Source of the DNA: Camillea tinctor | Lineage: Eukaryota; Ascomycota; Sordariomycetes; Xylariales; Xylariaceae | NCBI GenBank assembly: GCA_022578605.1 | Contig: MU394139.1 | Span: 1 to 64,000 of the forward strand | Length of the DNA: 64,000 nt | Direction: 5' to 3' | Part shown: piece by piece, positions 12,623 through 40,104 of the stretch | Numbering within the stretch: the first letter of the stretch is position 1 | How the letters are laid out: every line of letters starts with the position of its first letter | The notes under the pieces: generated by a model | Seen by the model: only the letters and a program-made list of their open reading frames with translations | The model's database searches: none | Told to the model about the DNA's origin: nothing | Program-made: the position numbers and the translations under genes

Positions 12623-13682
12623 TGTATGTATATATCAGGCCTTACACCCCTCGCCAGGCTCCCATCTAGACCAACACCTATTGGTCGTATTCCCTCATTA
12701 TTATCTGATACCAATGCGACCCAACTACTAATTTGGCGGTATTCACACTGTGAAGCGAGATATCTAACCTAATAGACTCTAAGAGAAGGTATTGAATTTG
12801 TAACTAATTGTAAAGAATTTATATCGTTAATACGTGTTATCCATAGAATTTCACTTCGTTAAACCGAATTGTGCATGAATGCTTTCTTGTTCCACCAACA
12901 ACTTTCTATTTTTGGTTTCTTACATCACGCTCTCCTATCGTGACTCGGTCTCTATACATGCAGATTATGCCTTCGTCTGCAGGTTACCCTCGTATATTGG
13001 GGTCCCCATACTCACATCTCAGTTCTCACACGACTCACATTCCCGATTATGCATGTACACCCATCGCTGTCAAATAGACAACATTTCCGCCAATAGCGCA
13101 AACAAACCATTAGATAAAAAAAAGTTGGCTATGATGATGCATGTGTTTCTTTATTGCATCCTCATACTTTGGGCCTCTGTACCGGCTCAAATACTAGAGA
13201 ACCCAGTATTTTCTCTCCTCTCATACCAGCTTACGACATGTTGCATCCAGGAATTCTCAATTGATCACACCAGTCGATTACATTGTTCATGAGGTACCAC
13301 AATATTATTGGCTGCCATATAGATATTAACACCTCCAAAACTTAGGTTCAGAATGTCTGTCAAACCTATGGCTAGCCTACAGCATAGCTGTAGGGTGTGT
13401 TTTAAGACCTCTGGGCACCAATAATTACCTGAATTGGGCATCAATAACTACAGGTTTTGAAGAGGATATGTGGATTAGATGAAGACAAATATCCGGCTTA
13501 TATAATTTGAGAGAAGCCCGAAGGCAGAGTCAAACTCAGTCATCAAGTCTCCTAGTCACAGAATGCTCAATTTGTTGAATATTGTGAATCGCATTGTTGG
13601 AAAGTGTGACACTTTCTCATTAATCTAGAACTCGAAAAGGAAACAAATTTTATTAGGGAAGAAACGGGAGTAACTGTTTGTC
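12623..13682. other. Intergenic stretch upstream of the GTPase gene
   Basis: Overlapping short frames at 12871-13292 lack motifs. The last few hundred bases should contain the promoter of the large GTPase gene, but I can point to no defined element. Confidence 0.4.
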
Positions 13683-16600
13683 ATGAATCTCATGATCGAT
13701 CGTCCAGCTCTTGGGCAAGTGGCGGAACTTGGCTCTTTTTACGACTTTCGCACCGACAACTTCATTGCTGGAAGCTCTCTTCTGAAATGTGCGGCCAAAG
13801 ACCTTCCCGAAGGGGCAGTCAATGTGACGGATAATCACCAAAGTAACATTCAGTTCAAAAAGTCTCAGACCTATCGGGAGAAGCTGGATTTTATGGAAAT
13901 TAACAGCGAGCTTAGTGCAAGCTTCTTGGCCGGTCTAGTTACAGTTGGGGGATCAGGGAAATATTTGCACGATACCCGGGACAGTAAAGACACTATGGAG
14001 TCTTCTGTGATTTATAAGGTTACTACAGCCCAAGAAACTATACTCAACTTCGGTGGCATACGAAAGTATCTCGCGTTAGATGCAATCCGGCACTACCCCG
14101 ACTTGAGGAATGCTGATACTCCTTGCCCAACACATGTGGTCACCGAGATCGGCTGGGGTGCTAACACCATCGTTACCTTCCGGGCTACAGTTTCAGAGAC
14201 GTCTGATACTACCAAGGTTCATGGATGGTTCAAAGTTGCCTTTGAGACGCTCAAGACGGTCAAGGCTTCCGGGAAATCCAAGGCTGACATCTCAGACACG
14301 GATAAGGCGGCTATAGATATGCTTGAGTTCAGTGTCTTTGGTGACGTTATGGCTGGGGATGGAACTGTCCCAATGGATTGTGCCAGCGCGATTCAATTAA
14401 TGGAAAATATGCCCCAGTATATCAAGAGCTCCAATGGTGGCAAGGGTCAACGTCTAACATACAAACTGTTACCGATCACTATGCTAGGTTTCATCTTTGG
14501 GGTCCAAATTACGGCGACGATACAGCCCAGTCAGATCGGTTCAGGGAGTCTCGACCGCTTTGTCGGCCTATTTGACGAGATCCGTGATGTGGATCGTGCC
14601 TTGAACGACTACCACTCTCTCATCTCTAAGAACATCTCCTACGTTTCGTTAGAGCACTTGCAACAGGTCGAAAGCAACCGGAATCAGCTGAGAGCCCAGG
14701 AAGCTTCTCTAAAATTTGAGTACGCAAGACTTCTTAAAGGCGTACGGTCGGGTAGGAATGAACCAGATGAGGTGGAAAGGCTGTATAAGGAATTCCACGA
14801 AGGAGTGGAGGCCATTCAGAATCTTACCTCTGTGACTTATGAGTGTGTCGATAAGATTGATTTCATCACTACGTTAGTGAAGAAAGGTGCACGCTACATT
14901 AACTATAAGGGCGCAGTTGAAACTGAACTAGCTAAAGGCGAAAGTGAGGATGCCTACGTCCTTTATTTTAGTGAGAGTTCTCGAAAGAACTATGCCGAAT
15001 GGGGTGAGCTTTATGCTCTGCTGCTGGAGCTACTCGACGACAAGACGTCCAGCTCTCTGGTTCTACTTGCTGACGAGGAGGGCTCTCGGACTCCTATACC
15101 AAAGCCGCTACTTTCTCAATACCGTAATCTGGTTAAAATTGTCCCGGATGTGTTCGAAGAACAACGATTCCTCAAAGAGAAGTGCCTTATACAGTACGAA
15201 CAGACCCAGCTGGAGACATATCACGAAGCAAGACCTGTAGCGTGCCGAGAGGTGCTGCTTCCCTGCCCCGGTCCACACTGCGAACGCAAACGCGTCATGG
15301 CATGGGTCTGCCGTACCTGTAAGTCGCCAGTCCAGTACGGCCATACAGATGCCTACATATACTGCGACTGCGGACGCACTTTATATTCCGCCTATGGCTT
15401 TCGGTGCAACAGTCCCAAACACGGTACTACCTTCGAAAAGTACAAGGAGCCCTATCTGAAGGCTTTGCTAGATAATCTACAGCCGTTCCCGGAACTCAAC
15501 ATCTTGATTTTGGGTGAGACTGGTGTAGGCAAGTCAACCTTCATCAACGCTTTCCTTAACTACGTCTTGCACGGTAGCCTTGAGGATGCTCTCGATGCAG
15601 AGAAGCTCGATTCCTGGATTCCAAGCTCTTTCTCTGTACACGTTCAGAACAAGGAGGACCCTAATGGCCAACATATTGAAAGAAAGATCAAGATTGGGTG
15701 TAGTGACGATGAACTGGACGGTTCCACTGGACAATCAGCAACACAGAGTACGAAAGTCTATCGGACTCAGCTTGGCAGAACGAAGGTGCGCTTAATAGAC
15801 ACACCAGGTATCGCTGATACCCGAGGACATGAACAAGACAAGAAAAACATGGCCAATATCCTTGATTCGTTGAGATACTTTGAAAAAATACATGGAATTC
15901 TCATTTTACTCCGGTCTAACAATACTCGTTTGTCGGTAGTCTTCCGGTTTTGCATCAAGGAACTGCTTACCCATATTCACCGTGATGCGGCCCGCAACAT
16001 CGTCTTTGGATTCACCGGTACGAGTGCGACGAACTATCTACCAGGAGAATCCCTTACTCTACTTAGAGAAATGGTCAGGGGATACAAAGAGGTGCCCATA
16101 GGTCTCAACCAAAATCAGGTTTACTGCTTCGACTCGGAGAGCTTCCGTTATCTAGCCGCTCATAAACAAGGGGTGGATATGGGGGAACGATCTGCGTCGG
16201 CAGCTAGTGAGAGTTGGAAGCACTCAGCTGCAGAGGTAGAAAAGCTCGTGAATCATTTCTGCCAATTAACTCCTCATGAAGCGAGCAACACTATATGCCT
16301 GAACAACGCGCGTATCAGGATAGAGAAACTCACAAAGCCGATGGCTGACGTTTGGGAGAGTATACAGACGAGCATCAAAGTGAACAAAGACATGAATAGG
16401 AAGATATCTGAGAACAAGCTCAGCGAGGAAGAACTAAGAAGGGTTTTATGGGTAAAAAAAGCCGTCACATCTGTCCGGCCACTCGACCGCCCCAGGACCG
16501 TCTGTGCGAACGACGACTGTGTCAAATACCGAAATGTCACACATGGTGGCGTAAATGAGTTCAGCACTATCTACAACACTATTTGCCATGAAAGGTGTGG

Positions 16601-17360
16601 TGTCAAAGGCGTCCAGCTCGAGACCCGCGGCCACCAAAGGATTCTCAAATGCTCAGCATTTAGCAACCATGGACTCCCATGCAACACATGCACCCATAAC
16701 TGGCAGGAACACCTCCACCTCAAGTACGAGACTATTGAGGAGATTATAAACGTTGAAAACCCAGATATTGCTAAAAGTATCCAAGAAAAGAGTAGCCTAC
16801 GAGAGCAAGCTGAAGCTACCCTTACGGCGAGAAATACCATGATAGTGGAATTCGAGCAGGAATATCAACAGTTGCAGGACGCAGCCGTGGATTTCAGTGT
16901 GTTCTTAAAGAACAACTCTATCCAGCCTTACAACGATGCCATGATAGAATATACGGACCATCTTATCCGTCAAGAAAAGCAGAAATTGAATCTACTCACT
17001 CAGGAAAATACGACAGTTAAGAATAGGAGAGCATATATCGCGGACACCTTGCCCATCAAAGAGCGCCTGTGTCGTCTAGAGGAAAGTCAAGCCAAGTACA
17101 AGGAGTTGATCAAGGCATTTGAAACCAACCTTGGAAGGAACAAAAACAATGGAGTGCTCACGGCGGCCGAGATAGAGGCAAGGTTACAAGAGCTTTTCGC
17201 GTTGAAACATTATGGCAAGGTACTACGAGGTGCATTTGAGGTAGTGAACATGACCGAAGCAAGTGACTACCAAGAGAATTACTACCCTGTTAAGTTGAAT
17301 AAGAGAAAGGTGGGCGTTGTACGGGGGATTTGGGGAAAGTTGCGGTCACGCATGCAGTGA
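13683..17360 (+). CDS. Large protein with stonustoxin-like N-terminal region and immune-type P-loop GTPase domain
   Basis: An uninterrupted 1225-codon frame, unusually long for this window. Residues 1 to about 290 resemble the N-terminal MACPF/CDC-related region of stonustoxin/verrucotoxin-type proteins: the PALG...LGSFYD opening and the GGSGKYL segment. A helical region follows to about 520, then a Cys/His cluster (about 527-580, including CRTC and CDCG). A GTPase domain has G1 GETGVGKST at about 611-619 and G3 DTPG at about 706-709; the GFTGTSATN segment near 775 is the G4-like position. A second Cys/His cluster lies at about 941-1010, and a long coiled coil at about 1040-1180. Related fungal proteins are usually annotated as stonustoxin-like or AIG1/septin-like GTPases (family knowledge). 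I infer a membrane-acting or defence-related role; this is not shown. No signal peptide is seen, so it is probably cytosolic. Confidence 0.85.
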   Translation: MNLMIDRPALGQVAELGSFYDFRTDNFIAGSSLLKCAAKDLPEGAVNVTDNHQSNIQFKKSQTYREKLDFMEINSELSASFLAGLVTVGGSGKYLHDTRDSKDTMESSVIYKVTTAQETILNFGGIRKYLALDAIRHYPDLRNADTPCPTHVVTEIGWGANTIVTFRATVSETSDTTKVHGWFKVAFETLKTVKASGKSKADISDTDKAAIDMLEFSVFGDVMAGDGTVPMDCASAIQLMENMPQYIKSSNGGKGQRLTYKLLPITMLGFIFGVQITATIQPSQIGSGSLDRFVGLFDEIRDVDRALNDYHSLISKNISYVSLEHLQQVESNRNQLRAQEASLKFEYARLLKGVRSGRNEPDEVERLYKEFHEGVEAIQNLTSVTYECVDKIDFITTLVKKGARYINYKGAVETELAKGESEDAYVLYFSESSRKNYAEWGELYALLLELLDDKTSSSLVLLADEEGSRTPIPKPLLSQYRNLVKIVPDVFEEQRFLKEKCLIQYEQTQLETYHEARPVACREVLLPCPGPHCERKRVMAWVCRTCKSPVQYGHTDAYIYCDCGRTLYSAYGFRCNSPKHGTTFEKYKEPYLKALLDNLQPFPELNILILGETGVGKSTFINAFLNYVLHGSLEDALDAEKLDSWIPSSFSVHVQNKEDPNGQHIERKIKIGCSDDELDGSTGQSATQSTKVYRTQLGRTKVRLIDTPGIADTRGHEQDKKNMANILDSLRYFEKIHGILILLRSNNTRLSVVFRFCIKELLTHIHRDAARNIVFGFTGTSATNYLPGESLTLLREMVRGYKEVPIGLNQNQVYCFDSESFRYLAAHKQGVDMGERSASAASESWKHSAAEVEKLVNHFCQLTPHEASNTICLNNARIRIEKLTKPMADVWESIQTSIKVNKDMNRKISENKLSEEELRRVLWVKKAVTSVRPLDRPRTVCANDDCVKYRNVTHGGVNEFSTIYNTICHERCGVKGVQLETRGHQRILKCSAFSNHGLPCNTCTHNWQEHLHLKYETIEEIINVENPDIAKSIQEKSSLREQAEATLTARNTMIVEFEQEYQQLQDAAVDFSVFLKNNSIQPYNDAMIEYTDHLIRQEKQKLNLLTQENTTVKNRRAYIADTLPIKERLCRLEESQAKYKELIKAFETNLGRNKNNGVLTAAEIEARLQELFALKHYGKVLRGAFEVVNMTEASDYQENYYPVKLNKRKVGVVRGIWGKLRSRMQ

Positions 17361-26866: not shown

Positions 26867-27518
26867 TTACTGCCTTCGTTTCCGAGTCGCGCTAGGTGAC
26901 AGGTTTGATAAATCTATTTTTTCCACCGATTCAGGACCACATATAATATTCCTGGAAACAGATGATCCAGATGCTATATTCCTGTTAATGGATATTCTAG
27001 TCATCTGTTGCAAAGCAGCAGATACAATAATGTTTTGTGTGTTGGCATCATCTCCACATTTATTACTGTCTGTACAATAGTTAGTTATGTTACCTAGCTC
27101 GTGATTGCTATGGCTAGAATAGATACTATAAAGCTTGGGGATGATAACACGTACCGATCTCAACGTTATTTGAGCCGTTTTCCTTTGGCTCGTTTCCCTG
27201 GGCTGACTCCTCCAAGTTGTCATCCGGCTGAGTTGGTTCCTCCCCATATTCATTTGACTGGTATGTTTCCTGCTGTTCGCCATTCCACTGATTGGGAGCA
27301 GCTAAGGCTTGCTGGAGCCCTTCTTGCCGGTACCCTGCCCACTCATTAGCAGCAAGTAAGGCTTGCTGGGATCCTTCCTGCCATTCGCCATTCAATCCTG
27401 CTATTGCAGCTAAGGCTTGCTGGATTCTTTCCTGCGGGTTCCCGCTCCCCGCGTTAAGAAGCAGCATTGTTAACTGCTCCAAGACCTCAGATGGTATAGT
27501 ATTGTTCGGCGAAGCCAT
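26867..27518 (-). CDS. 18-aa-repeat protein with two C-terminal amyloid-like motifs
   Basis: Exon 1 is 27518-27155 and exon 2 is 27069-26867 (85-bp intron, donor GTACGT, acceptor TGTACAG, phase 1); the product is 188 aa. Residues 29-82 form three 18-residue repeats built on QE-x2-QQALxA, helical and amphipathic, followed by an acidic linker. Exon 2 encodes two copies of a short motif 28 residues apart: NKCGDDANTQNIIV (124-137) and NIASGSSVSRNIIC (152-165). The same pattern occurs in the proteins encoded at 29559-30376 and 35342-36360. I infer a prion-like signalling module as in fungal NLR/effector pairs. The tail is basic (RKRRQ). The N-terminal repeat module is not a family I know. Confidence 0.6.
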
Positions 27519-27744
27519 TGGGAGTCCGTGAGTTGTTTGAGGCCCAATTCCAAACTCTTCTGGGCTTATTGTATAAGCTTGTAAAGAAGTCTAAATGTTG
27601 ATAGTGGTTATTAGTGGCAGAAGCAATAATTCGCATAGTACATGAAAGTACGTACCTCTCTAGGAATAAGAAGCCCAAGCGTTTCTATTTATATGTGATA
27701 GTACCACAAGGCAGGAGTATTTGTAGCTCTAGTCCAGTCCTCGC

Positions 27745-27777
<33 letters not shown>

Positions 27778-29558
27778 GGATGATCAGGTATCTAAGTTCT
27801 GACTAAGTCCCTTGTGACGATTAGCGTAAATTATAAGATCGGGGGGATACAACTCGTGGCAGCATACCGAGCGGGCCTTATACAGCCATAGAGATGCTTA
27901 CCTTCAGTGGGAAAAGTGGAAGACAAAAGTTCAAGTATACGAGTGTTACAGGGCATAAGATAGCTGAAAGTTATTCAAGGAATTAAAAATGGATGATGTA
28001 TCGAAGACGGAAGGGGATCGGAACTAGATTGTGGGTGGGGATGGCCTTATAAGGACTCGGCAGATGGAATAAACTTCCTCGCTGCAACGAGACATAGGCC
28101 CAAGTCCTGACTGTGAAAGATTAAAACGCCCTAAGCATTGGGGAACTTCTATAGAAAGACTTTTGAATTTCCCTTGTGCATAAAATCTTCTATTCAAGGC
28201 TGCAGAGTGCCGATTATGACGGTGATATTGTTGTCCCCGAGACCTTGTCAAGGAATTGGGTACTCGCGATGTTTTGCTTCGAGTCTAGGACTATAACCAC
28301 CTCTAATGTTCTTGTCCATACTTAGAATACTCACCTTCTTCCCTTACAAGGTATGTACTTCTAAGTACTGTATGGTCTATATGACAACGAGTGCTATAAT
28401 GATTAACCGTTCTACAATTGCCTATCTCGGACACATCCTCACCAATTGCATATCACATCATTGAAATTGCACTCCTGAAGATATCACATCTTCAATCACG
28501 TCTATTCGCTAGATGACAGTCTTTGTAGTCCGGTGAGACAGCAGCCAGAGAAAGGCAGAATGATACCGATATCCCCTCCGCACTCCATTGGATGTCTGAA
28601 CGATGAACAGTAGGCTGTAGCCAACATCAAGCCCAAGTATCAACTTCTCACCGACCATGCATAAAAAGCCACCTCCTGCGGTCAGACTGACAAGTGCAAA
28701 AATTGCTTCTCGTGTTTCCGGCAGATAAGAATCAGTGACATGAGAGAGGCTGTCCTGCTTTGTAGTTTCAGTAGATTGTTCTTTAAGTTACAATGCCACC
28801 CCTTTCCCAGGATATGATATGCTACAAACCCAGATGTTTTATGACTACAGCTGCTAGGCAATGTGTACAGATACCTACTGGAAGCCTTGCGTATGTGATA
28901 TTATGCGTCATTATTGCCTTTCGCTGCCGATATTTCACGTCCTCTGAGGCATTCATGAATGTAACGCTATGACCACACCTACCATAAGTCATATGAACAT
29001 GAACTAATATGTAACACGTTGCGGAGCCTCACTTGCCATGATTTTCTTTGAAAATTGAAGCTGAAGTCAAGGATAGAAGAATAATATAAAAAATAAATCT
29101 CTACTATATCTCTTACCGGGTAAATATGTAACTACATTATGCATACTATGTGGTGCTTATGGGGGATAACCCCCTAGGACACACACTGGGCACTGGGCAC
29201 GATGATATATTGTGCTATCCGCCATGCGCGCGTGTGAGAGAGAGAAGGATAGTGAACCCAAAAAGGAGAACTAATAACTAGCGCCTACTGAGTCATCCTG
29301 ATGTAACAGTGCTAAGCTCTTGCGGTAAGAGTTATTCGTAGAGTTCTGTAGTGATCAAATGAAAAGCCGTTCTCTACGTTAGCTCATGTAACATATATAT
29401 GACACGATTAACTTAGGCTAACATTGGAAGTAGATTCAGCAGATATATGATGCTCTGCTAGACAGTCTAAAAGCTCCAAAGCTACCAGTCATGTTCTGGC
29501 GAAACACTGTTCCAAATATCTCCCCACCAAGCGTCTTCATGTGACAACAAAAAAAAAA
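27519..29558. other. Intergenic stretch, no gene seen
   Basis: Apart from a CAA microsatellite at 27744-27778 there is no supported feature in 2 kb. Confidence 0.4.
27744..27778. repeat. CAA/ACA trinucleotide microsatellite
   Basis: About eleven tandem CAA triplets. They lie in an open frame of 62 codons that I do not consider a gene. Confidence 0.9.
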
Positions 29559-30376
29559 TTAGAAACACATTCTGTGAGTTATCTGCGAAGCATTTGATAC
29601 ATCGACCATGAGATTCTGCTGTCGGGCCATCCCAGTCGCCTGATTGTGCATGATGCAAGCCTTCGTCAGGCTCTGGGAAGATTCCATCCCTATCATGCCA
29701 TTCAATTGATGTGCACTTCCAAATATTTTGTTTTCTCCAATAGCCAAGTCATGGCGACTCTTCTTCTCCTCTTCCAGGGACCTGACTTTCGTTTTGACCC
29801 CCCCGCATGCTTCGGTCGGCGGCGTTTTAATAGGACTCGAGGTCTTGGCTTCTTCTCCCCATGCAGCTTTTCTCACTTCTTCGGCTAACCCCCCTGTGAG
29901 CTTTATTTGAAATAAACTTATTTCCAATAAAAGAGGAATTTGAGCTTTGTGAAGCCGTTCCAAAACGTCAGCGAGTTTGATCTCGTCTCTCTGCCCACGG
30001 CTCAATGCTCGTAAGCCTTGTTGCAACGGGCTTTTGCGTTGCAATATTTCCATAGATTCTAACATTTTTTGAAGTTCGTTGGTAATATCTTTTATAAATT
30101 CAAGTTGGCTTTTTATGTTGTCGGTGTATAAACCCTTCTCGCGTTCGATATGACGAAGTATGTTGGATAAATACAGTAAATGCCTCGTCGTATCATGAAG
30201 GACCTTAGGCGCTGTTTTTACAGCACGTCGCGCGGTATCAACCTGCTGGTACAAGTCTATGACCTGCGCAACAAGCTGCCCGATCACCGCAACGAAGCCC
30301 ACCGCATCCTAACAATTCACGATATCTCAGTATACAGTTCTTTGTTATGAGGATTTAAAATTGATTCTCTTACCAT
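29559..30376 (-). CDS. NLR-effector-like protein: HeLo/SesA-like helical domain plus two amyloid-like motifs
   Basis: The start codon alone forms the first coding exon (30376-30374). An intron at 30373-30309 (GTAAGA...GTTAG) follows, then exon 2 at 30308-29559; the product is 250 aa. The start MDAVGFVAVIGQLVAQVID is typical of fungal N-terminal domains found on STAND/NLR proteins and their effectors (HeLo, HeLo-like, SesA). Residues 1 to about 150 are helical. A charged linker leads to two repeats, NKIFGSAHQLNGMI (194-207) and NQATGMARQQNLMV (223-236), 29 residues apart. In known systems such C-terminal repeats template amyloid folding and activate a membrane-targeting helical domain. That role here is inference. 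There is no NACHT domain, so this is a stand-alone effector or a truncated NLR. Confidence 0.7.
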
Positions 30377-32652
30377 ATGATGTTATTAGAAATGATATTT
30401 CGAAGATTCAACCGTGATGTTCAATCCAAAAGGAAATGGAGATGGAATTGCAGGAAGGCCACCTAAATTGAGATGATATAAGACTTAATAAGACGAGAAT
30501 CCAAGGTAACATAGCCTTGCTAAACGAGACACAGGCCCTAAAAAATAGAAGAACATGGCTGAAAAAAAAAGGAAATACAAAGGCTTGGTGAGCGGTGAAG
30601 AGGATTGTTCAAATATACGAGTCTAAATATACTTGACTCTCGCCTAGTTCATTAAATCCGGTAATAAATGCTAGCCTATTCCTATACGAATAGCCCCTAT
30701 TAGTCGTAGCATGGCTCGTGTATTTCCTTTTACGTCTACCTGACAGTCTCAATATCTATTTTCGCTCCTGTAAAGTGTAATATTCATCCAAGTAAGCAAT
30801 CATCTAGCTACGATGGCATTCCATACCGTTTAAGTGAATGGAGATTGTGGCTATGCGCAAGTCATTATCATTGCCATCAGTAGATCCTATTGGCTCTGCC
30901 CATGGATTGATTATAGATTTTGTCACGTGGGAAGCCACTGTATTGCCTCCAATATGATATTCATCTAGTGTTTGTCAGGGGTGGTGAATGAATTACAACT
31001 TCGTTTTGTAAGGCGCCTGAACTACCGCTAGTCGTTGTACCGTTATCAACATCTGGAAAAATGTTCATTTATTCCATCTTTCCGAAGTGCCAATCTATGA
31101 ATAAATTGGTACATATTATATTTACTTGACTGGTTTTGATCCCCTCATAGCCCAAATCGATCGTAAAGCAAAGCAATAGAATATATAGACATAGCGGCTC
31201 CCCTCTGTTGTAACTCCAACAAGAGAGTTTCGGTTAGGAAATCTAACTGGTTCGTCAAAGTTTTCCATAAATAAATAATTAAATGGGCAGATGATCTAGA
31301 AAAAGCATGGGACTTTACCTAGTTCTCATCCTATCCTTTCATGTAGCAGTACTAGATTGTCCTTTGTACATATGTGTTTCATGGGTACTTACAGAAAATA
31401 ACCCCCCCTGGGATCATTTAATAGGCTAGCTTTCTGCTATGTCTCTATATCTTCTAGCACTCGTTATAAATGAAGGAACCCCCTGACAATGACCATCCTA
31501 TTACCTTCCCAGGTATTACATATATCGCCGTTGTTATCAAGTTTACTTGCTCTTTTTGTCTTGTGGCATATGGGGGTCTGAATGCATGTTGATCATTTTA
31601 TCAGCTTCATACTATTGGCTTCTTCGTTTTCCCTTGTAACTTCTGTTGGTGGAAGCTTTAGGAGTTAAGCCGCGAGAGAGACCTTAGCAAAGTTTTTTCA
31701 AGTGGTGTATGAGGGCAAATCAGAGCCTACCTTTGTACGGTGGCCCGAACATGAGTTCATAGGGATAGGAAGTAGAAAAATAGACTTGGGATCACATTAT
31801 ATTATCGGAAATTATCTGTCATTGTTTATTACAAGGAAGATGCTACTTCTAATCATAGTTAGTGGGACTAAATGACTTTTCACAAGTCAAAAGTAGGAAA
31901 GTTTAGGAATTAAAAAGGGGGCGATTCTATTTGCCGAAGACCTTCCTATTCCCCTCCTTCCTTTTGTATAACGTATTCTATTCTGTCATATCAGATCATT
32001 CCATCTATACACACACCGCCCAACTCATCTTGACCGAGACCTGCAGTCTTAAAGCACCAAATATTCGTACCGGTGCAAAGACAGCGGCGAGATCGCCTCC
32101 AGCCTACATATGATGGGAATGTATGTATTACTACTTGGTTAATTATCCATTCTAGTAGCTGCAGAGGCAAATCACATTGCAGATTATATTGAGAAGGTGT
32201 GGAAGTGTAACCGCTATCATGAGGAGTAGGATGCTCACAAGGGAGTGCTATTGGTGCGACACTCTTTCTATCTATGCAGGCAATATCATATTGACTATTC
32301 TATCACATTACCTGCATTGTTATTTCGTTGAGGGTCGAATAAGAATGACAAATTTCTAATGTGGTAGTTAGGTTCTAGCACAAAATGTATATTTGGCACA
32401 TATTCTAGTTGCTTACGGTCTAGATGCAACTTTAGAAAGAGCACACCGGTTGATTGTCCGAAAAACTTTTTAAAAAAGACTTGGGTGAGTGAGAAGGTAA
32501 ATCCTGTTTTGTTAGGAAAGGGGGGCTGTGTCTATTCTACGTAATTCAACCAGTGTTCCTTTTCATAAAGAGACCGACTCTGCCTCCCATGCTTCTTGAC
32601 TTATTTCTCTCTGTTAAATATTCCCTAAAGCTGCATATAGTTTCGCCATACA
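30377..32652. other. Intergenic stretch, no gene seen
   Basis: No supported coding frame in 2.3 kb. Short frames at 31931-32359 have no motif. The last part should hold the promoter of the AAA+ ATPase gene. Confidence 0.4.
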
Positions 32653-35166
32653 ATGGGACAGACAAAATCGAAGTCAGCAGCTGGTACTCCAGTTGGAAGG
32701 CAATGCTCGACTCCAGACCATATCCAAGCACAGTCACCAGCCTTGAATCCTAGTATTGATACATGCAATACAGGTTGTGTTTCAAGCCATCCAACTACTC
32801 AAACTCCTACCAGAGTAGGCATTCAGAAACAATGGTCTCCATCAGGGGATGGTGAAAGCACGATTGCAGATCAAGAACTGCCTCCATTAACATATGAGCA
32901 AGGAGTTAAAGTAAATTTCCTTCCTCCCCTTTCATATTATAAGACCACCATATATCGGATATAGATTATGAATTCAATCTAACCTAAATTCACCATACCT
33001 AGACACATAACTATTTCCCTCGAGCACCTTTCCAAGTCAGGCATAAGGGGCAAATATTATGTGATCTAAAACACTCGCACACCGAGTCGACCTTGAGAAT
33101 CAGCTGTCCACTCATCATTGACACTCTAATGAGAGCCTTAGGTAGTCATCCTAGCCTCTCTAAGGGGAAAGTATCCACTGCATCGGGTACAGTTGTCAAT
33201 GTACCATGTGAGTTGATCTTTCACAACAGAAAGAAAATCTCAATGGTCATTGATAACCAGAAGGGAGATGACGCTAGCACTCATACGGAGCTCCTCCTAG
33301 GGTTTCTACAAGAAAACCGCCCACACATCTGGCAGAAGTTTGATGACATCGATCAAGGAAGGTGCAATGAGATTGCTTTCCAAGACTTGTGGATAATCTA
33401 CTCCCCAGGGTCAACAGTGGTCAGAATGGATGAAGGGGAATGGAGAGCCTACAAAGTACAAAGAGTTGAAACCAGTGCTAACCCAGATAAGCTGGCAATC
33501 TATTGCTATTTCCTCGATTTTGATCATAAGGGAACCTCCCTAGTACCACATCTCAAAGTCCTGGAGGTATGTTCGTTTTCTTCGATGAAGCCTATCGGTT
33601 GCCTCGAGGTAGTTCCCATGTGGTTCTTCGACAAGAGCGATGATTTTCGCAAGACATTACTCGATCGAGGGAAAAAGTACTGGGACTACAGCCGTGAGGT
33701 ATTCCATTGTGAATATCAAGGCAACGCATGGCCACGAACATCAAATAAAGTAATGTACCCATAATGAAATCATTTATTGGCACTTGCTCACTCGTGTAAC
33801 AGGATGTGGTCAAGATAATCGTTGACTATGTGACTGATAGTAAGCATGATGCACGGCAGTGTTCTACAGCACTTGCTATTGGTACCTCATGTTCTATGTG
33901 TCTTGCGGAGATAATCAATCTCCAACCCTATCCAGATGCAATTGAACACGATCCTGCCATGTGCAGAGCAACAGATCAAGCAGTGAAACAGACAATTGCC
34001 GAGAACATAAACGATAGCGAATGTTCATTGCTGTTCTGTCCGCCCAAGTTGTGGGCTTTTTCCCTGAAACATAAATCTTGGAAGATGGTGCTACCTCAAG
34101 ACTTGAAGAGGGTTCAAGGGCAGGGTAAAGAAGACAATGCACTCGACAGGTTGTATATGGACTGGAACAATAAGCAGCATCTTTGTTCCATTCTCAAAGC
34201 CCATCTAAAAAATAGATCCAGCGGATTCAATCTCGATGTCATCAAAGGAAAGGGGAAGGGTTTTAATATTCTTCTACATGGCAATCCTGGTACAGGAAAA
34301 ACATTGACAGCAGGCAAGTTGATACCGCATATACTCCAGATTCATCCTATCATTTATATAGGAATTCTAGTTTCTAACCCCCTGTAACGGTTGGCTAACC
34401 ATTGATTAGAGTGTTTGGCAGAGAAGGAGGGAGCTCCTCTATATGCAGTAACATGCGGCGATTTAGGCACGGATGTCAACATCCTTGAACAACAACTTGA
34501 AAAAGTTCTATTCCAGGCTACTAATTGGGGAGCGATTCTACTGCTGGACGAGGTCGACGTTCTCTTCCAAAAGCGTAGTGGCCAAAGTCTCTTCGATCGC
34601 AATGCTATTGTGTCTATCTTCCTCCATCATCTTGACTATTCGGAAGCTTTCATTTTGATGACCACTAACCGCATTGCCGAACTAGACTCAGCCATAAATG
34701 AGCGACTTCACATGGCACTTGAACTACCTGATCTTAAATTCGAGGATCAGAAGTCTATATGGACTGGGTTAATTGAGCGTCTTGACGGGCTCACCTCTGA
34801 CGAAAAAGAGAGCCTGAAGGAGTTCATCGATCACGGCCTTCCATCATTGGAAAATGGAAAGTTTCAAAATATGAATGGGCGACAAATCAGGAATTGCATA
34901 AGCGCTGCCCTTGCAATGGCCCGAAGAGAAAACTGTAAGTATATCTATTGGTAATTTCTCTTGATTGCATACCTACCTAGCGACCTCAGATCAATCACTG
35001 TCAACATTGTTCCAAGATTCAGATGATAGTTGCTTACCTATAACACCCAGGCTCTCTTAATGGACATCATATCACGGATATGCTTGGGCTTGGTTCAAAG
35101 TTTGAAGAGTTCATTTCTCGATTATATCCTCCGCTGCTGCGGAATATTGTGTCTAGAGGTCTTTAG
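32653..35166 (+). CDS. AAA+ ATPase, fungal DUF7025-type
   Basis: Five exons: 32653-32910, 33003-33749, 33803-34313, 34410-34934 and 35051-35166, all phase-consistent, giving 718 aa. The intron after 34313 has a GC donor (G|GCAAGT); using it restores GTGKTLTAECLAE, the usual AAA sequence after the P-loop. Walker A is GNPGTGKT, Walker B ILLLDEVDVL and sensor 1 LMTTNR. The long N-terminal region matches the layout of fungal ATPases annotated with DUF7025 (PLIIDTL, DLWIIYSPG, YCYFLDFD). The N-terminus MGQTKSKS fits an N-myristoylation signal (Gly2, Ser6). ATP hydrolysis is well supported; the cellular role is unknown. The gene converges on the truncated NLR-like gene 175 bp downstream. Confidence 0.85.
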
Positions 35167-35341
35167 GTTTATCTTGGCAATATGATAAGATGGGATATAT
35201 GACTTCACGATGTTATGACTTTCATTTTGGTAGCTATTTTGTTGTCTTCATTATAGTATCTATGAATGCAACATTACTTCTCTCTATTAAGCATGGATCT
35301 GATTCATTGCGAAGGATATACATGTGTTTCTCTTTCCGGCT

Positions 35342-36360
35342 CTAAACAATTTGGCTGTTTGGGTGGTTCAATCCATTGTTCTTTTGATTCAGGAAGTTGG
35401 TAAAGTTTTCCACCACATCTGGGTCATTGGTGGTAAATATTATTTTGACAGTTACCCGGCTTCGAATTTCGTTGGCTAGGGTTATTAGGGCCTTAGACAT
35501 TTCAGGAAATTCCACAATATCGATGCCATCAATCGCGATAATGACGTTTTGTATGTTAGTCTTGTTAATACAGTCAACAAATGTACTCCAGTACTCTTCG
35601 AAAGTATTGCCCTCTGCGATCTTTTTGGTAATAATATCGTCGAGGTCTTTTTTGCTTGAATGAAAGAACCCATCCTCCAGTGACTCGGGTAGTTGGGTAA
35701 GAATATGTTGAATTATAACTTTGGGTGTTCTATTGTTTTTGCTGTAACACCAAGCCTGGAACTTCTTCTTCTCTTCCGTTTCTTGAGGTTTGTTCTGTCC
35801 CGGTTCGTTAAGGACCCGCCAAATATCAATCAGGAGATTTGTTGTATATCCAAGATGGCGACCATGTCCGTTTATCAACATAATGATAGGATCATCACTG
35901 TTGAGCCAATTAACTAGAGCCTCTCTCTCTTCCTGGTCTATCGTTTCGAGGACTGAACAATGGTTCCCACGGAAGCTTTTCCTAAATTTCGACTCTTCCT
36001 CTTGAAAACGAAGTAGGCTGTCGGTGTCGTTATCAATCCTGGACTGGTCATTCGGGATACGAGAGATGGTTTCGGCACCATCATCATTCCCACATCGATC
36101 AGGTGGGTGATGTAAGAGGCTTTCAACCCAACTCCTTACTGTTTATTCAAGTCAGCAGATTGCAACCTTATAATAATACTTCTTATCATTCTTTACAGAC
36201 CTTCTATTGGTGGCTTGGTTCCATCCATTACGAAAAAGTTGATTGTAGCCCGTTGATTAATTCTTTTATCCAAAGAAATATTTATGAAGTTATTTTGCGA
36301 TGCTTGTCCCGAAGCACAATTTCCACTTATTTCGTAGCCACCCTGGATTTCCAAAGGCAT
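35342..36360 (-). CDS. Truncated NACHT/NLR-like protein with N-terminal amyloid-like motif and degenerate P-loop
   Basis: Exon 1 is 36360-36201 and exon 2 is 36138-35342 (62-bp intron, donor GTCTGT, acceptor AACAG, phase 1), giving 318 aa. The N-terminus holds NCASGQASQNNFIN (14-27), the same motif as in the two proteins encoded at 26.9 and 29.6 kb. The middle follows fungal NLR order: an LLRFQEEE...FRKSF linker, a WLNSDDPIIMLINGHG segment where the P-loop is expected, and a Walker-B-like VIIAIDGID (252-260). The segment KIIFTTNDPDVV lies at the sensor-1 position. The P-loop position reads NGHGRHLGYTT, lacking the GKS/T lysine, so nucleotide binding is doubtful. The protein stops shortly after the sensor region, with no WD40, ankyrin or TPR repeats. 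It is either a decayed NLR or a minimal adaptor. Confidence 0.7.
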
Positions 36361-38196: not shown

Positions 38197-40104
38197 ATGT
38201 CATTATTTCCCACACGTTTAGCCCGTTGGCTCCCGTATGTGCCAAAACCGGCGTCAGTCATACGAGGCAAGTAGAACTTCTCTGGCTTAGTTAGTGTATC
38301 CCCTAGTGCTGCTGCCTCGTGGGAGTCTGCTTAGAGGAACAGATAAAGGGGAAAGAGAAATGAATACCGAGTCTGGCTGTCAGGTGTTTTGGGCACGAAA
38401 TTTAACATTGGTGCCTTAGTCTTTTCACAAATCCGCCATCTCAATAACCGCAGAAAAGAACCACCAGATACTAGAAAATTGAGTCTGGAGCAGCAAGAAT
38501 TAGTCAACCTTATTCTAACTGGGCGCAATGTGTTCTATACCGGTGCAGCTGGGACGGGAAAGTCGGAAGTTCTCAAAGCCGCAGTCAAAAGTCTCAGGGA
38601 TCTTGGGTGCCGGGTCCATGTCGTCGCACCAACGGGGAGGGCAGCACTAGCTATTGAAGGCATGACCACATGGTCCTATGCCGGCTGGAGCCCTTCATCT
38701 CATACCTACCATCTCAGAAATCTGCGATCTTGGTCGATAGAGCAGCAAAATCTCCATCGCCTTGCCTATACTGACGTTCTCTTCATCGATGAGATCAGCA
38801 TGGTTGAAAATCACCATCTGGAACGACTAAGTGAGATTATGAAGGCAGCCAAGGCCCACGAAGCTTTGAAGCAAATTCAAGATCAACCAGAGGAAATTCA
38901 GCTGCAGATGTTGTCTCGCTCGGAAAGGCTCCGAAACACTGCTTTCGGAGGCTGCCAGATCATTGCTACCGGTGACTTTTTCCAGCTACCACCTGTGTGT
39001 CCCTTCCAGCGCTGTGTTGAGTGCGGTAATAAGCTTCTCAAGGAGCTCCAGCCGGGTGCGACTACATATCGATGTTCATATGGTCATGGAACTTGGTATG
39101 ACTCTGAAAAATGGGCATTCCGATCCAAGGTTTGGGCACATGCCAACTTTGCCCACGTTGAACTGAAGCAGGTTCACCGCCAAGAGGGAGACCCACGCTT
39201 CATCGATATCCTCAATAGGGTTCGATTTGGCACGCTCACTAGTAACGACGTGATGATTCTCGCAGACCCCGGACGGAAAACCAAAGATCTAAGAAATGCA
39301 GTTAGGTTGTACCCAATTCGTTCTCAGGTGGATAGGTACAATGACGATAGACTTCGAAAGTTAAAAGGCCCCCCTTACGATTTTTTCACTCTAGACTCTT
39401 TCTATTGGAATAAGAAAGCCCATCCACATCTTAAATTCAAAGGCAATAGACAGGATGACGGTACACTGACCGCTTTGCGAGAGCATAAGTATGAGCCAGT
39501 CCTGCGTCTTAAGGTTGGCATGCCGGTAATATTGCTTTCAAATATCAGCATCGGTGAAGGCCTAGTCAATGGAAGCCAGGGCATTGTTGTCGGCTTTACT
39601 TCACAATACCGCATCAACGAGTGGCGTACTGCTAGCGCAAAAGAAAGACACATTCTTGAAATCATGTACAACGAGACATTTCGTTACTTCATGTGGCCCA
39701 AAAACCCCAGCAAGACACTCCCTATCGTGAGATTCAATAACGGCATAACTAAAGTTATCCACCTTCACTGCTCCACTCATGCGATGGGTAATGAGGTCGT
39801 GCCCATTGACAGAAACAATACGAACAAGATCATAGACTACCCCCCACCTTCGGTGCTATGCAGAACCCAGATCCCCCTTACTGCCGGTTGGGCAATGAGT
39901 ATACATAAGGCACAGGGAATGAGCCTCGATGGCGTCATTGTAGATCTCACACGGGCATTCGAAGAGGGACAAGTGTACGTCGCCCTGTCAAGAGCAAGGA
40001 GACTTGATGGACTCAAGGTAGAGGGCGATCCCAATGGTTTGTTAACACGGAAAGAGGGAAACCCAGAAGTAAAGAAGTTTTACCAGGAAAACTTTGGCCA
40101 CTAA
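38197..40104 (+). CDS. PIF1-family 5'-3' DNA helicase, probably mitochondrial
   Basis: Exon 1 is 38197-38266 and exon 2 is 38384-40104, giving 596 aa. The intron uses a GC donor (CGAG|GCAAGT) and a CTGTCAG acceptor, with matching phase. Without exon 1 there is no ATG before the Walker A motif, so this start is needed. Exon 1 encodes MSLFPTRLARWLPYVPKPAS, basic and without acidic residues, as in a mitochondrial presequence. Visible helicase motifs are I GAAGTGKS (about 77-84), II FIDEISM, Q-x-HRQEGD, V GWAMSIHKAQGMSLDGVIVDL and VI YVALSRAR, the typical PIF1/RRM3 set (family knowledge: unwinding of G-quadruplexes and maintenance of mitochondrial or telomeric DNA). A CxxC pair near CVECGNK is an insertion. 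It is shorter than yeast Pif1 and might also derive from a Helitron-like element, but no Rep domain is present. Confidence 0.85.

Follow-up and report, generated by a model that had tools for sequence, protein, structure and literature searches.

We analyzed a window of 64,000 nucleotides from the fungus Camillea tinctor (positions 1 to 64,000 of contig MU394139.1, here called C89, in a genome of 44.7 Mb in 154 contigs) that carries three nearby genes whose products share a short sequence motif. The three genes are all on the minus strand, lie inside 9.5 kb, and encode a NACHT-type protein, a HeLo/SesA-like protein, and a protein with repeats of 18 amino acids (aa). The gene models and the motif copies in this window are:

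35342 to 36360, minus strand: NACHT-type gene, 318 aa, as modelled (exon 1 36197-36360, 62-bp intron 36135-36196, exon 2 35342-36134)
29559 to 30376, minus strand: HeLo/SesA-like gene, 250 aa, as modelled (start codon 30374-30376, 65-bp intron 30309-30373, exon 2 29559-30308)
26867 to 27518, minus strand: repeat-protein gene, 188 aa, as modelled (exon 1 27155-27518, 85-bp intron 27070-27154, exon 2 26867-27069)
36280 to 36321, minus strand: motif copy NLR r0, NCASGQASQNNFIN, residues 14-27, at the N-terminus of the NACHT-type protein
29691 to 29732, minus strand: motif copy HeLo r1, NKIFGSAHQLNGMI, residues 194-207, with counterparts in a homologue (P0002) and in a paralogue on contig C1
29604 to 29645, minus strand: motif copy HeLo r2, NQATGMARQQNLMV, residues 223-236, with counterparts in the same two proteins
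27023 to 27064, minus strand: motif copy Rep r1, NKCGDDANTQNIIV, residues 124-137, with two departures from the pattern
26939 to 26980, minus strand: motif copy Rep r2, NIASGSSVSRNIIC, residues 152-165

One short coding intron was modelled in each of the three genes, and in every case a GT-AG intron can join the open frames. The five motif peptides reported in the first-pass annotation of this DNA were all found where it had placed them, in open frames that these introns can join. The HeLo-like gene model is identical over its 250 aa to a database entry for the protein of this window (P0001), and for the NACHT-type gene two alternative splice choices exist, each of which yields 318 aa. By codon usage, the modelled frame ranked first of six in 4 of the 5 exons of the cluster, including exon 1 of the repeat-protein gene; it should be noted that this scoring, from whose training set one faulty gene with 17 stops had been excluded, separates genic from intergenic windows poorly.

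The motif was defined from nine copies in five proteins: the five copies above, two in P0002, the homologue of the HeLo-like protein from Biscogniauxia mediterranea (beginning at residues 235 and 264), and two in the unlinked C1 paralogue. The consensus is N-x3-[G]-x-[A/S]-x-[Q]-x-N-x-[IVM], where the brackets around G, A/S and Q mark residues present in most copies but not in all. Both Asn residues are invariant in the alignment (9/9 copies). The motif also appears longer than was first stated: [IVM]-x-x precedes the first Asn in all nine copies; position 13 is likewise [IVM] in 9/9 and is mostly followed by another hydrophobic residue. Rep r1 departs from the pattern originally proposed at two positions, having D in position 5 and T in position 9, rather than at one. 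The spacing of 28-29 residues reported for both C-terminal pairs was reproduced: it is 29 residues in all three HeLo-family proteins (window, P0002 and C1 paralogue) and 28 in the repeat protein.

The sharing of the motif was evaluated with matrices trained on the copies of one gene family and applied to the others. A matrix built from the six HeLo-family copies alone (window gene, C1 paralogue and Biscogniauxia homologue) was scored on the 48,924 six-frame peptide windows of the 64 kb. Peptide windows scoring at least as high as Rep r2, NLR r0 and Rep r1 numbered 3, 5 and 7 of 48,924, respectively, counts in which two of the high scorers are training copies and one of the seven for Rep r1 is the unspliced form of that copy. 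A background set of 192,955 windows, taken from loci elsewhere in this genome, reached the same three scores 1, 7 and 10 times. In the opposite direction, a matrix from the two repeat-protein copies placed the NACHT copy third among the 48,924, that is, first after the training copies, with HeLo r1 fourth and HeLo r2 sixth; in the background set the NACHT copy was equalled twice, HeLo r1 and r2 11 times each, and the two C1 copies 142 and 14 times. When the repeat-protein and NACHT copies were combined, HeLo r2 ranked fifth and HeLo r1 seventh. Of 4000 shuffles of the repeat protein, 0 attained its best pair of copies 26-31 residues apart and 45 attained its best single score. Because the copies were initially chosen by eye, the all-window ranks deserve more reliance than the shuffles. 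That the motif is common to the three genes beyond chance is statistically sound in both training directions.

The N-terminal part of the HeLo-like protein had been described as a conventional helical killer domain. Profile matches of the SesA/MLKL_N type agree with this description, but all of them are below the Pfam cut-offs. The top profile for the window protein is SesA, at an expectation value (E) of 0.005 and 17.4 bits (cut-off 26.3), and that for the C1 paralogue, which is 43% identical, is MLKL_N (E 1.2e-5, 25.3 against a cut-off of 27); P0002 matched neither SesA nor MLKL_N at E up to 1. The weak SesA and MLKL_N matches are mutually consistent and fit the opening MDAVGF of the window protein, which is typical of the family, and they suggest a HeLo/SesA/MLKL-like helical N-terminal domain. 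Identity to P0002 is 101/147 in the HeLo domain, 12/41 plus 41 gapped columns in the linker, 28/49 in the motif block and 5/13 in the tail. The 69-residue tail of P0002 retrieved the tail of the C1 paralogue with E 2.0e-7 in the 44.7-Mb genome. Two other similarities in the protein structure database (PDB) were judged to be probable solenoid/coiled-coil look-alikes and dropped: one of the tail to chains named 'Rab family protein', presumably Roco proteins bearing leucine-rich repeats (whole-chain E 1.3e-4, no single stretch significant), and one of the whole protein to a dynein heavy chain (E 5.6e-4, residues 88-206).

In the surroundings of the paralogue (C1:540,001-560,000), 18 frames of at least 120 aa were viewed and 4 were scanned with Pfam, with no NACHT match among the 4. 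The NACHT/NPHP3_N matches listed on C1, which are lower bounds, lie near 17, 1001 and 1009 kb, far from the paralogue. Two neighbors of the paralogue (locus L018) are a 766-aa protein at C1:545293-547593 with the N-terminus NNTAKSGATQYNIGI and a 151-aa protein at C1:548834-549289 that ends in two similar stretches followed by CVIL, which is CaaX-like. Both have a weak resemblance to the motif, equalled by 272 and 214 of 5000 shuffles, respectively.

The features relevant to the NACHT-type protein, and the gene that separates it from the HeLo-like gene, are:

35840 to 35869, minus strand: expected place of Walker A, GHGRHLGYTT, residues 144-153, located by alignment alone and upstream of the Pfam match
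35519 to 35545, minus strand: Walker B-like strand VIIAIDGID, located by alignment and within the NPHP3_N match
about 32641 to 35166, plus strand: AAA+ gene with DUF7025, AAA and AAA_lid matches in Pfam and a GKT P-loop, between the HeLo-like and NACHT-type genes

The NACHT-type protein matches NPHP3_N with E 1.1e-4 and 22.9 bits (cut-off 24.8), over profile positions 62-162 of 164, which places the match downstream of the expected P-loop. No GK[ST] occurs anywhere in its 318 aa, and no Walker A of the form GxxxxGK[ST]. When it was aligned with eight NACHT proteins of the same genome, the Walker B-like strand was seen to be kept, GYT stood at the P-loop place, and Asn occupied the sensor Arg position, which is Arg in 8/8 of the others; these eight were the first of 27 PF05729 matches, chosen for having GK[ST], and therefore say nothing on how often it is lost. 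The frame stops after the NACHT core, and the Pfam scan gave no C-terminal repeat family (WD, ANK or TPR). The stop is 175 bp from that of the convergent AAA+ gene, whose last exon, joined by eye, ends at 35166. In its own genome the best non-self match of the protein has E 0.13; this match, at C1:39,672, contains internal stops, overlaps a 351-aa frame on the opposite strand, and was rejected as chance. HET-E is inactivated by mutation of its P-loop (PMC3321046), so that, by analogy, an NWD2-like switch is unlikely in this protein. Lacking both the GK[ST] P-loop and sensor repeats, it is probably no longer an ATP-driven, ligand-gated receptor. Thus the NOD-like receptor (NLR) of the first-pass annotation is not supported as a working one. 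The layout that it described does stand, however: the motif is shared between the N-terminus of a NACHT-type STAND protein, as a single copy, and the C-termini of the products of two nearby genes, as pairs, with one AAA+ gene in between.

The third protein has a period of 18 over residues 1-95 (lag-18 identity 24/77, the best lag being reached by 0 of 5000 shuffles). Two features belong to its gene:

27267 to 27456, minus strand: tandem repeats of 54 nt (18 aa), with copies 54 nt apart and 61-76% identical to reference copies
27591 to 27693, minus strand: by eye, a possible core promoter with a TATA box, TATAAATAG, at 27685-27693 and a possible intron of the 5' untranslated region at 27591-27655 (GTACGT...TTTAG)

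The 54-nt repeats were not reported by Tandem Repeats Finder. The N-terminal module is acidic, with a charge of -7 over residues 1-86, rich in Q and A, and weakly amphipathic (helical moments of 0.06-0.32 in the windows printed), and it ends in a basic tail. The protein has no Pfam family at E below 0.1 and no match with E under 0.5 elsewhere in its own genome. The designation of this protein as an effector can be applied only provisionally.

Two further open frames of the window may be recorded, both on the plus strand. One, at 13674-17360, is of 1228 aa and has an SNTX-type MACPF match (E 3.2e-15), a DUF7656 match (E 8.7e-21) and a GTPase region of the AIG1/MMR_HSR1 type. The other, at 38347-40104, is of 585 aa and resembles a PIF1-like helicase (E 1.7e-22).

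Signatures of the known amyloid-signaling families were tested on the five proteins by pattern matching, and the isolated tails were scanned with Pfam. The HRAM pattern (hydrophobic residues at 5, 8, 10, 16 and 18, Gly at 19, in a 21-residue repeat) was absent from the motif regions; its one match in the five proteins is in the helical domain of P0002. The PP/RHIM signatures (NxGxQxGxN or [IV]Q[IV]G) were found in 0/5 proteins, as were PUASM (FxGxGxQxxGxGxF) and the provisional GDQN (NxxxGxQYxxxGxGDQNxVSxxxxQxN). Ses_B gave no match in the isolated tails, though the same Pfam scan was positive for a sequence at C7:663700-663756 (L092). This PP-type motif exceeds the Pfam cut-off and terminates an open frame of 102 aa; there may be a separate PP system in this genome. 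NACHT_sigma matched none of the isolated tails, the HET-s model of Pfam had no match in the motif regions, and the threefold GxGxQFN/GGTQNINT submotifs of sigma were not present in the proteins; under the nine-copy matrix the published sigma peptide scored -1.4, which was equalled or bettered by 3407 of 5000 shuffles. One BASS3 peptide, from the bacterial BASS families, was compared by score and was not above shuffles. By these tests the motif appears to be neither sigma, HRAM nor PP. A description of it was not found in the portions of literature text compared (including PMC8086366, PMC7889193 and PMC12258605), a scope of running text rather than figures, logos and supplements that makes this weak evidence of absence.

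The genome has at least 69 matches to PF24883 (NPHP3_N) and at least 27 to PF05729 (NACHT), in overlapping sets, a large NLR repertoire for 44.7 Mb. A genome-wide search with NACHT_sigma gave no match up to E 10; its control was positive in one genome alone and there below the cut-off. PF11558 (HET-s) had no match either, but this search was silent in all control genomes as well and does not demonstrate absence.

On balance, we lean slightly toward the view that the locus is a cluster of the fungal amyloid-signaling type with a motif undescribed in the literature compared. In such a cluster, the HeLo/SesA-like protein would be a membrane-targeting executor of cell death that stays inactive as long as the two motifs at its C-terminus have not adopted a beta-arch or beta-solenoid amyloid fold. 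The protein with 18-aa repeats, having the same motif pair, would be co-assembled or co-activated, and the NACHT-type protein would supply a single seed copy; the amyloid fold, the templating and the cell killing are all presumed. Given its degenerate state, the NACHT-type protein might be a relic, or else a seed or limiter, and the two proteins with motif pairs would then more likely convert each other, a behavior already suggested for the sesA and sesB products of the sigma locus (PMC3321046). A more specific proposal is that the motif (N-x3-G-x-[A/S]-x-Q-x-N-x-phi-phi, often then G) marks a new family in which a HeLo-type killer, a non-HeLo, 18-aa-repeat partner and a seed-only receptor remnant devoid of ATP switching form a branched amyloid circuit that works without a functional NLR; this we consider unlikely.

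Several results weigh against an amyloid-signaling cluster. For the HeLo-like protein a single outside homologue was found, P0002 (Biscogniauxia mediterranea, Xylariales). Database proteins 351-1118 aa long included no homologue of the NACHT-type protein up to E 10, and 207 word-sharing candidates drawn from 5.8 billion proteins included none of the repeat protein up to E 1. In the PDB, a profile of the three HeLo sequences retrieved neither HeLo nor MLKL chains, and the motif profile retrieved nothing up to E 10. The structural model of the HeLo-like protein has a mean predicted local distance difference test score (pLDDT) of 46, with residues 3-157 helical and, at low confidence, a helix in the motif region as well. 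The motif tail alone, modelled with the three window copies, gave helices and no strand at a mean pLDDT of 45.5 and a predicted template modelling score (pTM) of 0.12; this lends no support to a beta fold, and the model is too poor to count against one. Exon 2 of the repeat-protein gene, which is short, has the modelled frame second of six by codon usage. Taken alone, the NACHT copy is only modestly significant, since 163 of 20,000 shuffles of the 55-aa N-terminus score at least as well. Finally, as to whether the motif accompanies NLR genes, the window shows the pairing, but none of 68 other NLR regions of this genome contained it above background (best 11.1 against 12.5 for a reversed-sequence null), the regions being merged from the PF24883 and PF05729 matches and spanning 2.6 kb, from within the NACHT match to 2.4 kb upstream, so that intron-split or farther copies would escape, and the NACHT matches listed on C1 are remote from the paralogue.

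These points can be read in other ways. Chance similarity in tails rich in Asn, Gly and Ser, together with a HeLo tail that is truly duplicated, would explain why about 0.8% of shuffles attain the NACHT score and why Rep r1 breaks the pattern at two positions. It would not explain why matrices from one gene retrieve the copies of the others, both ways, among 48,924 windows, or why composition-preserving shuffles of the repeat protein never produced the pair in 4000 trials, and we regard it as very improbable. That the locus is the remnant of a former amyloid NLR signalosome is a more serious, if still doubtful, proposition. The receptor would now be pseudogene-like, the repeat protein a recent and non-functional orphan, and the HeLo-like gene alone maintained. 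The missing P-loop and the truncation beside the convergent AAA+ gene agree with such decay, as does the fact that the HeLo gene alone has a homologue detected in another species. Nevertheless, the NACHT and repeat proteins retain open frames that have usable introns and are free of internal stops, the modelled frame is first by codon usage in most exons (a weakly discriminating test), and the motif copies of both proteins still match.

The motif could also belong, in much diverged form, to a known family (sigma or, less probably, HRAM) and not to a new one. The core spacing equals that of sigma submotif A, GxGxQFN (PMC3321046), and the best profile of the N-terminal domain, SesA, is that of the sigma-locus effector. 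However, NACHT_sigma was found neither in the tails nor, with the weak control noted above, in the genome; the sigma peptide scores no better than shuffles, the threefold A/B repetition is lacking, and the hydrophobic/Gly-19 pattern of HRAM occurs in no motif region. We hold membership of a known family to be rather unlikely. The repeat protein may be a regulator and not an executor, that is, a motif-bearing scaffold or sink that buffers, localizes or restrains assembly of the HeLo-like protein. Its acidic, Q/A-rich, weakly amphipathic module, which matches no Pfam family and ends in a basic tail, would suit such a role, but clusters described in the literature have a second effector as their additional motif-bearing protein (SBP, SESB; PMC5485727), and the regulatory role, while possible, falls short of an even chance in our estimation.

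Only four or five families of fungal amyloid-signaling motifs have been counted so far (PMC12261475), and very short motifs evade profile searches. Another family with an unfamiliar partner protein would, if confirmed, widen the set of domains under amyloid control, and a degenerate NACHT protein would make it possible to examine if these circuits survive, or become rewired, when the switch of the receptor is lost. The motif as defined here, from nine copies in five proteins, offers a direct handle for searches.

In published systems, one N-terminal copy of the motif is carried by the NLR and C-terminal copies by one or two adjacent effectors (PMC3321046, PMC5485727, PMC4518210). The HET-S/NWD2 pair and HRAM families 1-5 resemble the present cluster in having a HeLo-type domain, two C-terminal copies of about 21 residues split by a loop, and a single copy at the NLR N-terminus (PMC4518210). 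They differ in the Gly-19 hydrophobic pattern, absent from the motif regions here, and in copy spacing, as the copies described here start 28-29 residues apart. The PP systems (HELLP/SBP/PNT1; RHIM-related) likewise combine one NLR with two effectors, and G, Q and N alternate in their motif (PMC5485727), but NxGxQxGxN and [IV]Q[IV]G are not found in our proteins and the PP-type copy of this genome is separate, on C7. PUASM and the provisional GDQN are recently described fungal NLR/effector motif pairs, the latter accompanying a SesA domain (PMC9815663, PMC12261475); their published signatures are absent from the five proteins tested. The cluster described here differs from the sigma locus of Nectria haematococca (sesA, sesB, het-eN) in having no threefold A/B submotifs, no aromatic residue in the motif core, no lipase match in the second protein, no NACHT_sigma match and a truncated NACHT protein. 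On the other hand, both consist of three clustered genes, in both the extension found at the N-terminus of a NACHT STAND protein recurs at the C-termini of a SesA-type effector and of a second protein, and the core spacing G-x-[A/S]-x-Q-x-N, though not the sequence, is common to our motif and sigma submotif A, GxGxQFN (PMC3321046). By analogy, the sesA/sesB/het-eN locus appears to be the closest in layout to the C. tinctor cluster.

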